DNA of 64,000 bases from Granulimonas faecalis (GTDB lineage: Bacteria > Actinomycetota > Coriobacteriia > Coriobacteriales > Atopobiaceae). Each line of letters opens with the position of its first letter. Position 1 is the first letter of the stretch. Shown here one piece after another: positions 58,454-61,233 of the stretch. The position numbers were made by a program, and so were the translations under genes. The notes beneath the pieces are model-generated. The model ran no database searches. It was given only the letters and a program-made list of their open reading frames with translations, and was not told the DNA's origin. Where the stretch lies: the NCBI RefSeq assembly GCF_022834715.1, contig NZ_BQKC01000001.1, positions 1,648,501 to 1,712,500 of the forward strand. Direction: 5' to 3'.

Positions 58454-58501
58454 CTGCGCCTGAAAGCCGTTGTGGGCACCCTCAGCGACTTTCAGGCGCA
58501 G
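58454..58501. repeat. 48-bp border palindrome, left copy
   Basis: CTGCGCCTGAAAG and CTTTCAGGCGCAG form the outer 13-bp arms; the inner part is imperfect. It is inverted relative to the copy at 61186-61233, with about five mismatches in 48. It supplies the last three codons and stop of the Cys-rich gene at 58492. A run of eight G follows it on the plus strand. Confidence 0.85.
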
Positions 58502-59025
58502 AGGGGGGGGCGAAGAGGCAGAGTCTCTCGACAGCGAAACGCACTTCGTGGGCAGCCTAGGCCCCGATTTTGGTCAAGAGCGGCCCGGCGAATCGCTCCG
58601 CTGGCAGCAGCCAGGAGTTCGTCGAGTGTGCACTCGCGAAGAACCCAATCCCGCACAAAATGGGGCATGCCCTTCGTGTGAATAATTAACCGCAAGAACG
58701 AGCACCTGCGCTTGTCCGAAACCAGCCCAAATGCAACCCGCTCCCGACTCTCCTCAAAGAGCATGGAGACCGAAGTCTCACCGCCACAGCCGAAGTTGTT
58801 AATTAAACAACCAAGCTTCTTCTCAATTTCTTTCTGTTGCAAAAGGAAAAGAGTCTCGGTCACTTCGAGAGGATCGCAGCGACTCGCTCCAGATGATCTG
58901 CCAGAAGCCCTGAACGAGCCGGTTGAAAAAGACTCCCATACGCCAGCCCTCACATCACAGGACGTGGCAAGGCGCCCGTTGAACAGGGTGGTTCGGCACA
59001 GGCACGCCTCGCGCTCACCCCTCAC
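58492..59025 (-). CDS. Cys-rich protein of the island, function unknown
   Basis: 177 residues from GTG 59025, which overlaps the permease stop (GTGA) and has GGGGGAGG upstream. Ten Cys are scattered along it (CLC at the start, then SCD, RCDP, GCLINNFGCGG, RCSF, ECTL, GCP, RCR and LCA). The middle (about 75-150) looks folded, with a Gln/Glu/Lys helix and a strand FLRLIIHTKG. The last residues ...PLRPPLCA and the stop lie within or beside the border palindrome, so the true C-terminus may have been replaced. Base composition is lower in GC than the neighbourhood. No family recognised. Confidence 0.55.
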   Translation of the reverse strand: MRGEREACLCRTTLFNGRLATSCDVRAGVWESFSTGSFRASGRSSGASRCDPLEVTETLFLLQQKEIEKKLGCLINNFGCGGETSVSMLFEESRERVAFGLVSDKRRCSFLRLIIHTKGMPHFVRDWVLRECTLDELLAAASGAIRRAALDQNRGLGCPRSAFRCRETLPLRPPLCA

Positions 59026-59690
59026 GAGACCTCCCCCGTCGGGCGAAAGCGGCTGCGGGCCAGCACCCGGAAGGCCCCGAAGAAGGCCGCCGACGCCGCC
59101 CACAGGCCGGCGGACACCCCGAGGACCCCAAAGCGGGGCAGGAAGGCGAGCACCGCCACCGCGAGGACGACCAGCACCGTGGCGATGTAGGCGATCTGCA
59201 TGTCGTCGGAGTCGCCGAAGACGAGCCCCCAGGGCGGGGCCGAGGACACGGCGAGAGCCACAATCCCTGATATGAGAAAAATAACGTTTATAATGTTATT
59301 CTGCATCAGCGCGGAGGCCGCGGAGACGTCGACCGCACAGTAGACGGCGACCAGCGAGATGCCAAATACAAGCCCCGTCATGGCCGGCAGTGCGGCCGCG
59401 CCCATGAGATAGCTCAACAGGGGGCGCCTCTCCAGGCAGACGCGCTGCAGGACGCCCGACCTTATGTCGTCCCTCACGATCAGAGAGTAGAACTGCATGG
59501 AGATGGTCAGGACAGTACCACTATAAAGAAAGAGCTCTAGCGACTGGGACCCCACCAAAGGGGCCAGCGTCCAATAGGGTTTTACGAGCAGAAGCCCAAA
59601 AAACCAGACGTATGCGAACCCTATCCAAGCAGTCTCTTTGAAAGATCTCTTTATAAACATAAGACTTTTATAAAAGAGCGCACCGACCAC
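59022..59690 (-). CDS. ABC-2-type permease of the island
   Basis: 222 residues, six predicted helices: about 20-40, 50-70, 100-120, 135-155, 165-185 and 190-210. It has no solute-binding partner and resembles ABC-2 export permeases that pair with a separate ATPase. It starts at GTG 59690, only 2 bp after the ATPase stop, and is coupled to the Cys-rich gene after it. AT-rich stretches (for example near 59640-59675) and codon choice differ from the chromosome around it. Likely substrate is a modified peptide, by analogy with radical SAM operons. Confidence 0.8.
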   Translation of the reverse strand: MVGALFYKSLMFIKRSFKETAWIGFAYVWFFGLLLVKPYWTLAPLVGSQSLELFLYSGTVLTISMQFYSLIVRDDIRSGVLQRVCLERRPLLSYLMGAAALPAMTGLVFGISLVAVYCAVDVSAASALMQNNIINVIFLISGIVALAVSSAPPWGLVFGDSDDMQIAYIATVLVVLAVAVLAFLPRFGVLGVSAGLWAASAAFFGAFRVLARSRFRPTGEVS

Positions 59691-59692
59691 AG

Positions 59693-60397
59693 TCAGCTCC
59701 CCTCCCCCACGTGACGCACCGTCGCAAAGTACCTGCTCTCAAGCTCATCGCGCGAGCATTCCGCAAGCGGGAAGCCGTCAACCAAAGATCCCTCGTCAAG
59801 CACGACGGCCCTTCCCCCAACCTTGTGGGCGAGGTCGAAGTCGTGGGTGGCTACCACCACCGCAGACCCGACATCTGCCATTTCAGCCGCGGCTTGAGCC
59901 ACCACCACCCGGGTCTCGGGGTCGACGGCGGCGGTGGGCTCGTCGAGGAGCAGCACCTCGGGCGACTCTGACAGCGCAAGCACTAAGGCGGCCCGCACAA
60001 ACAGGCCGGAGGAAAGCTCGCGACAGGGCGTGTCCATGTAGCTTGCAATCCCCATTCGCCGCGCCCATCGCTCTCCCTGAGCCACAACGTCTGAGTTGCC
60101 TAGGTATTTTTCTCTGAACCGCAGGTTCTCGCGGGATGATAGACGCTCTTCCACGCCCCATGGCCCCGTCACCAGCGCCATGCCGTCCATCCTGGTCATA
60201 TGCACGGCGATGGCGCCCTGAGACGGCTTGAGCACCCCATAGATCAATTTGAGCAGCGTGGTCTTTCCCGCGCCGTTGTGGCCCAAAAGGCAGCAGACGC
60301 CCCCGTCGATGTTCAGACAGAACCCATCAAACACCTGTTTTTTGCGCAGCAGCGTCCTATAGGAGAACGAGACGTCGGACACGTCGATAGATGGCAC
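59693..60397 (-). CDS. ABC transporter ATPase of the island
   Basis: 234 residues. Walker A is GHNGAGKTTLL (about 39-49), the signature reads ELSSGLFVRAAL (about 128-139; LSSG instead of LSGG), Walker B is VLLLDEPTAAVDP (about 149-161), and the switch His is in VVVATHDFDLA (about 181-191). The catalytic residues are intact. The type fits exporters of peptides or lantibiotic-like products. GTG 60397 is the start; it follows the radical SAM gene after 4 bp, and the permease follows after 2 bp. Confidence 0.9.
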   Translation of the reverse strand: MPSIDVSDVSFSYRTLLRKKQVFDGFCLNIDGGVCCLLGHNGAGKTTLLKLIYGVLKPSQGAIAVHMTRMDGMALVTGPWGVEERLSSRENLRFREKYLGNSDVVAQGERWARRMGIASYMDTPCRELSSGLFVRAALVLALSESPEVLLLDEPTAAVDPETRVVVAQAAAEMADVGSAVVVATHDFDLAHKVGGRAVVLDEGSLVDGFPLAECSRDELESRYFATVRHVGEGS

Positions 60398-60401
60398 GGT
60401 C

Positions 60402-61169
60402 TCACCCCTCAGCGTCTAGACTCTTGAAGCAGGTGCCCCACCAGAGGCAACGACCGCTTTTCTCTCCATGGGCAGTTGCCCATCCCACGGCCCTGCAACC
60501 TTTGCACTCGTCCACACGGTCGCAGCCTCCGCACCGCTCCGGAGATGGGTCAGCGATGGCCCTCATCTTGCGTGCCCCGTTCTGCCTGACCGTTTCAATG
60601 GTTTGACGCGACAAATTGCCAATTGTTTCCGGCAAAAGCGGGCATGGTCGCACAGAGAAGTCAGGCTCCACGTACCAGAGGCGCTCCCCTGTCCCACATC
60701 CGTAGGCCAACGCCTCGGCATTGGGCACCGCCTCTTCGTCGGCCAATACAACCGAGAAGTCCTCAGTTTCAAACTTTTCCTGCAGGCTTCGTAGAAGCCT
60801 ACGCACAGATGACGGGCGCCACGGATGCTCGCCCTCCAGCCCCACCGCTCTTCCTTCTGACAGCACGGAAGCCAACCGAAACGAAGAGACACCCCATGAG
60901 CGAGCCAGTGCACAGGTTGCCTCGGCCTCGCCGCTCGACTGGTCAATCAGCGCCATGGCACAGGCCACGCGCGCGCCCCTGCGCACAGCTTCTCTCACAA
61001 AGTGCTCAACACTCGCAAAAGCCCACGGAACCCCCCGGATAGCATTATGGCGCTTCTCAAGACCATCAAGGCTCACCTGCACACCAAGGCCCTGGATGGC
61101 GAGCATGTCGAGCACCCTGTAAGTACTATCCGTGTTCACGGCGCCCGAGGTGGTGACCTCTACCTGCAC
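60402..61169 (-). pseudogene. Radical SAM/SPASM protein lacking its N-terminal cluster motif
   Basis: 255 residues can be read from ATG 61169. The sequence begins in the middle of a radical SAM barrel (VEVTTSGAVNTDSTYRVLDM, like the usual TNG strand) and continues with VQVSLDGLEKRHNAIRGVPW. The C-terminal SPASM domain is well preserved: CGGCDRVDECKGCRAVG near 215-231 and later Cys residues (CLWWGTC). The CxxxCxxC that binds the catalytic iron-sulfur cluster should lie about 80-100 residues earlier. Upstream in frame there are only 12 or so codons before a stop inside the border palindrome. So the gene is truncated and almost certainly inactive unless joined to another part. Confidence 0.85.
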
Positions 61170-61185
61170 TCCGCCATGGCAAAAA

Positions 61186-61233
61186 CTGCGCCTGAAAGCG
61201 GCTGAGGGTGCCCTCAGCCGCTTTCAGGCGCAG
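61186..61233. repeat. 48-bp border palindrome, right copy
   Basis: Nearly perfect palindrome (22-bp arms around TG). On the minus strand it is followed by GTTTTTGCC, so it could also terminate the pheST transcript, whose last stop is 43 bp upstream. It is the inverted partner of 58454-58501 and truncates the radical SAM gene. Confidence 0.9.

Follow-up and report, generated by a model that had tools for sequence, protein, structure and literature searches.

What is encoded by the open reading frame that follows an ABC permease gene in Granulimonas faecalis? The ORF spans 177 codons on the minus strand of the 64,000-nucleotide stretch of DNA analysed here (the window), from a GTG at 59025–59023 to a TGA at 58492; a longer version in the same frame, from an earlier GTG at 59103, is also listed. 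The initial annotation proposed that its product could be a substrate, cofactor or partner for peptide maturation, because it is rich in cysteine and lies in one operon with ABC and radical SAM genes. The Cys-richness stands with a corrected count, as the translation has 11 Cys rather than ten, at positions 8, 10, 23, 50, 73, 80, 108, 132, 158, 165, and 176. The permease gene (59022–59690) ends in a TGA that overlaps the GTG start as GTGA, and a ribosome-binding site, GGGGGAGG, ends 4 nt upstream of the GTG. Therefore, translational coupling of the ORF to the permease is plausible. A frame of this length is moderately unlikely to stay open by chance, which is modest evidence by itself: among 2000 dinucleotide shuffles of 59025–58502, the given frame was open in 13 and any of the six frames in 192. 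The G+C content by codon position is coding-like mainly in the middle of the ORF and not at either end, and the codon score of the frame is the best of all six, yet barely above zero.

The genomic context given in the initial annotation is correct: this is a radical SAM/ABC operon of the peptide-maturation type, with the ORF as a member. The permease (59022–59690, minus strand, 222 aa) and the ABC ATPase (59693–60397, minus strand, 234 aa) both have intact frames. A dedicated ABC transporter is present, with the ATPase recognized by its family (PF00005, E 5.9e-20) and the permease, which has no Pfam match above cut-off, recognized by weak pairwise similarity. Further upstream lies a radical SAM/SPASM gene (60402–61169, minus strand) that is truncated at its 5′ end, with an open frame that continues upstream into a palindrome. 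This fragment has no PF04055 match and lacks the CxxxCxxC cluster motif, and its SPASM scores are 21.4 bits for PF13186 against a cut-off of 21.5 and 23.2 bits for TIGR04085 against a cut-off of 27. No precursor peptide gene was found upstream of the radical SAM fragment in the window; the palindrome and pheT are found there instead. From the state of these frames, the ABC pair are predicted to be the only intact genes of the window operon. The whole segment between the two bordering palindromes (58502–61185) has a GC content of 0.603, compared to 0.712 for the entire window, and a value this low or lower occurs in 1 of 307 window stretches of the same size taken in 200-base steps.

The left palindrome (58454–58501) begins 55 bp past the stop of a yhcH-like gene, named for its PF04074 match, and truncates the 177-codon ORF. 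The right palindrome (61186–61233) lies 43 bp past the stop of a gene that we take to be pheT from its translation, and it truncates the radical SAM gene, a cut that was absent from the initial annotation. It sits directly upstream of the radical SAM fragment and can form a hairpin of 48 bases with 22 pairs and a loop of 4, with an energy of −31.8 kcal/mol as DNA versus a shuffle mean of −8.8 kcal/mol. Since the hairpin is followed by TTTTT on the minus strand, the right palindrome looks like the pheT terminator. Both borders belong to a family of near-perfect palindromes of 42–48 bp, with 22 full copies and one partial copy in the genome, several of them close together. Twelve of the 22 copies have the 3′ end of an ORF no more than 100 bp away, by a hand count using ORFs picked with a composition rule. 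The border palindrome was not found in any of the 159 other relatives at E 1e-5 (every candidate was scored in each of the 20 relatives listed), and the same search scored 5 of 30 candidates in its own genome. Separately, another radical SAM gene of low GC content (0.51; 343 aa) was observed at G000:C1:846155–848648 (L064:1656–4149); it overlaps an upstream 286-aa gene without an NCBIfam match and is followed by short ORFs, with a palindrome copy about 20 bp past the last of them.

At the left border, the stop codon of the ORF sits within a palindrome arm (58489–58501), and the palindrome also supplies the codon for C176. The suggestion that the C-terminus might be artificial is borne out, because the reading frame runs into the repeated palindrome. 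Both breaks in the operon coincide with members of the palindrome family, which suggests deletions or captures that end at hairpins. It is quite unlikely that the palindromes represent a mobile or recombination element specific to this genome, one by which foreign islands are trimmed or captured near gene ends, and that the operon here was cut down to the ABC pair and kept as a pump shielding the host from the peptide of a neighbour.

The initial annotation had pointed to homologues beside radical SAM and ABC genes as a check on its proposal. Profile and sequence searches gave no homologue of the ORF in the collections searched. Its own genome was the sole match at E 0.01 among 200 genomes (its own and 199 others), and within that genome the ORF matched itself and one other sequence at E 0.54. 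A pattern scan of GTDB contigs gave 81 pattern matches and a scan of viral contigs gave 29, with no relative in either. There were zero matches in plasmids at E 10, two chance-level matches in phages (E 3 and 4), two unrelated, chance-level matches in the PDB (best E 0.16), and no family match in Pfam, NCBIfam, or PHROGs. The homologue question was therefore answered through synteny. Among the neighbouring genes, the permease matched only itself in 200 relatives at E 1e-4 and had 20 pattern matches in viral contigs, none of them a relative. The radical SAM query likewise found no relative among 4 pattern matches in viral contigs, and it had one match in plasmids, from Indioceanicola profundi (29%, E 3e-8). 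It matched 2 of the 200 relatives, its own genome and Olsenella sp. Marseille-P4559 (G094), and an alignment query for more such operons returned one GTDB locus, from the same Olsenella.

Olsenella sp. Marseille-P4559 (NZ_LR027574.1; locus L031) has an intact operon of the same gene order, encoding a precursor-like ORF, a PqqD-radical SAM protein, an ABC ATPase, a permease, a TldD-like protein, and a TldE-like protein. As in the window, the radical SAM gene is followed by the ATPase, the permease, and then the gene in question, and the three recognizable proteins are similar. The ATPases share 39% identity (E 2e-47). Single comparisons gave 25% identity over 123 residues for the permeases (E 8e-7; the search of 200 genomes above, at E 1e-4, did not report the Olsenella permease) and 32% identity for the radical SAM proteins (E 3e-43), with the window fragment aligned to residues 195–432 of the 447-aa Olsenella protein. 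Residues 1–194 of the Olsenella maturase have no counterpart in the fragment. In the Olsenella protein, this missing part includes a PqqD domain at residues 44–96 (23.2 bits; cut-off 23.4). It also takes in the first portion of the radical SAM domain, which begins at residue 126, with its cluster motif. Unlike the window, the Olsenella operon is complete, with a precursor candidate, the PqqD and SAM-cluster parts, and full TldD-like and TldE-like genes. The TldD-like protein matches PF19289 at E 3.7e-15, has an HExxxH motif, and matches the PDB TldD structure 5nj5 at E 7.5e-4; the TldE-like protein matches PF19289 at E 1e-5. The precursor candidate (L031:7247–7474, minus strand) has a longest frame of 75 codons, with a shorter start possible after AAGGAGG. 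It has GG before a Cys and a hydrophobic C-terminal part with two Cys, and neither Pfam nor NCBIfam gave a match. The GC content of the Olsenella operon is 0.579, which is low compared to the right flank (0.663) but not much lower than the left flank (0.593), and no arm of the border palindrome was found in the 14 kb Olsenella locus at one mismatch. The gene after the ABC permease is thus the ORF in the window and the TldD-like gene in Olsenella, the one genome with this gene order. With the two gene orders matched, the ORF occupies the place of the start of tldD.

Compared directly, the ORF and the Olsenella TldD are weakly similar. BLAST was not significant, with E 12 for the full length and E 3.5 for the N-terminus. 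A Smith-Waterman alignment with BLOSUM45 placed residues 2–138 of the ORF collinear with residues 3–134 of TldD, a score reached by 12 of 500 shuffles, and with PAM250 the local alignment shrank to ORF residues 75–138, with 17 identities in 64 pairs. Against the N-terminus of the Olsenella TldD, the ORF scored higher than any of 287 other ORFs under each of four local schemes, in which 7–21 of 1000 shuffles reached its score; these comparison ORFs come from nine loci, many are not genes, and the set of 288 includes the ORF's own longer frame. Global schemes were more variable, with the score reached by 0, 5, 0, and 0 of the 287 ORFs and by 50, 102, 7, and 9 of 1000 shuffles; the figures of 5 and 102 are those for BLOSUM62. 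Of 12 targets from the Olsenella locus, the N-terminus of TldD gave the highest z score in both schemes used. The noise level was only a little lower: in one scheme, z was 2.4 for the unrelated ATPase and 2.1 for the Olsenella TldD's own catalytic half. The annotated frame of the ORF was also the best of its six frames against the TldD N-terminus. No resemblance was found to seven other TldD/E-type N-termini (z −1.1 to 1.5, including 0.31 for the TldD of genome G404). Pfam is blind to the ORF, as it is to the N-terminal parts of two clear relatives. AlphaFold gave no usable model, with a pLDDT of 38.6 for the ORF and 29.8 even for the true Olsenella TldD, and Foldseek with the low-pLDDT model of the ORF gave no match at E ≤ 0.001, a result that carries no weight.

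The ORF is likely to be what remains of the 5′ part of a tldD-like gene, an ancestry argued mainly by position. The permease-adjacent place, as in the Olsenella operon, the weak similarity to the TldD N-terminus, and the stop codon within the palindrome all enter into this assignment, which is likely given the synteny with one genome and the weak similarity. The ORF lacks both the HExxxH motif, which in the Olsenella TldD begins at residue 182, past the aligned part, and the C-terminal PF19289 domain. With the catalytic half absent, the ORF should have no protease activity.

Could the ORF be the 5′ fragment of another operon gene, for example tldE or some unrelated accessory gene? The similarity between the ORF and TldD is weak enough to leave room for such a gene, and the differing gene order in G404, described below, shows that such operons vary. 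However, the z score against the N-terminus of the Olsenella TldE is −0.42, while the TldD N-terminus tops the 12 targets in both schemes, and we consider this explanation unlikely. That the ORF encodes a genuine stand-alone Cys-rich protein, whether a substrate of the radical SAM enzyme, a cofactor carrier for it, or its partner in maturation, is very unlikely. The 11 Cys, the GTGA-coupled start with its ribosome-binding site, and the lack of a known family fit such a protein, but the maturase that it would serve has lost its SAM-cluster part, the stop codon comes from the repeat, and there are zero homologues at E 0.01 in the 199 other genomes. Furthermore, the intact operon has its own precursor-like ORF, and a TldD gene at the position of the ORF. 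The substrate and cofactor roles were therefore rejected, as the maturase is broken and the Olsenella counterpart of the ORF is a peptidase, encoded after the permease and separately from the precursor-like ORF. The third proposed role, a partner for peptide maturation, holds for the intact ancestor alone and does not extend to the present ORF. Finally, it is highly improbable that the junctions are assembly artefacts in which unrelated pieces were joined at palindrome copies while the operon is intact in the cell: both junctions do lie exactly in a repeat with 22 genomic copies, and the assembly is 96.28% complete in 2 contigs, but a 48-bp repeat would be short for a misjoin, the assembly would also need to have dropped the missing halves, and no other part of the operon was found, with PF19289 absent from the genome at E 1 (the same search matched 11 of 14 control genomes) and the N-terminus of the Olsenella radical SAM protein finding no true counterpart there and matching three other radical SAM genes weakly.

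TldD-type genes are rare in this taxonomic order, with PF19289 found in 6 of 297 genomes (G064, G005, G122, Olsenella G094, G404, and G080). A query with the Olsenella TldD matched 1 of 140 genomes of the family and 3 of 396 genomes of the class, and in plasmids it gave 26 records, none with 80% coverage. The PF19289 genes of Olsenella, G404, and G080 adjoin radical SAM and ABC genes. In G404, the run at L056:3234–8426 (GC 0.50) encodes a PqqD-radical SAM protein, TldD (PF19289, E 4.8e-11), a protein without a match, an ABC ATPase, and a membrane-like protein, a gene order unlike that of the window and Olsenella. The gene after tldD has no family match and is TldE-like by position only, and the membrane-like protein is likewise without a match. 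As a second genome that combines PqqD-radical SAM, TldD, and ABC ATPase genes in a single run, G404 counts in favour of the proposed tldD ancestry. In G080 (L055:2022–6560), two genes for ABC exporters lie between a TldD-domain fragment (E 3.1e-12) and a fragment of a radical SAM gene, with the ABC and radical SAM genes named by eye; this is apparently another decaying peptide operon. In G064 and G005, the TldD-type genes are surrounded by genes that, read by eye, resemble transporters for peptide uptake, and no radical SAM gene was noticed among them; the G122 protein was used as a TldD/E-type comparison. A query with the Olsenella radical SAM protein in 396 genomes of the phylum matched the genome of the window, G599, and G753. 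Inspected by eye, the neighbours fetched around the radical SAM genes of G599 and G753 included no TldD, with the G753 contig spanning 3,430 bases.

The intact Olsenella operon has features in common with known peptide-maturation systems. The best NCBIfam match of its maturase by E-value is AlbA, the type of sactipeptide maturase found in the subtilosin alb operon (9.7e-26), although the score of 90 bits is far under the 850-bit cut-off. The alb operon carries a maturase, an ABC transporter, and a protease pair together, as does the Olsenella operon. AlbE and AlbF are proteases of another type than TldD/E, so the two operons differ in that the Olsenella pair is TldD/E-like.

TldD and TldE (PmbA), of MEROPS family M103, are metallopeptidases known to cleave the leaders from microcin B17 and klebsazolicin (PMC10885120). 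The proposed ancestry of the ORF corresponds to the N-terminal part of TldD; in contrast to these proteases, the ORF lacks the HExxxH site as well as the C-terminal domain, and it is weakly similar over the N-terminal part. That a radical SAM enzyme and a TldD-type protease occur together in RiPP clusters is already known. Biphenomycin-type clusters, according to the accessible part of their description, combine a radical SAM enzyme with the TldD-type protease PbsP in one RiPP cluster (PMC12257519). The same part of the description gives these clusters a B12-dependent radical SAM enzyme, MNIO and other enzymes, and a single, partnerless TldD-type gene, and an ABC-centred gene order like that of the window and the Olsenella operon is not met in it (PMC12257519). 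We found no paper linking Olsenella, radical SAM, and bacteriocin together.

Taken as a whole, the locus is probably a doubly truncated remnant of a RiPP-type cluster, in which the ORF is a 5′ fragment of tldD with an artificial end and without the catalytic half. The segment 58502–61185 would derive from a radical SAM/ABC/TldD-E operon of RiPP type that was probably acquired horizontally. From what is known of these families, the PqqD-radical SAM-SPASM maturase of the ancestral operon would have modified a small precursor peptide, which the TldD/TldE-like metallopeptidase pair would have trimmed and the two-gene ABC transporter exported. Each end of the operon would then have been lost through a cut at a copy of the palindrome, which was found only in this genome. 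Comparison with the one intact operon shows that the 5′ loss comprises the precursor, the PqqD domain, and the SAM-cluster part. A 3′ loss of the catalytic half of tldD and of tldE is likely if the ORF is tldD, and the last residues of the ORF would then be junction and palindrome sequence. It is a matter of speculation that the two ABC genes, and they alone, might have kept a function, for instance as an orphan pump for immunity or export.

This reading removes a lead, that of a Cys-rich peptide substrate, which was probably false. It also identifies the Olsenella operon as the place to study the intact system, with its maturase, TldD/E-like pair, ABC exporter, and candidate precursor. Furthermore, the palindrome family found at both gene breaks may help explain how such islands decay.
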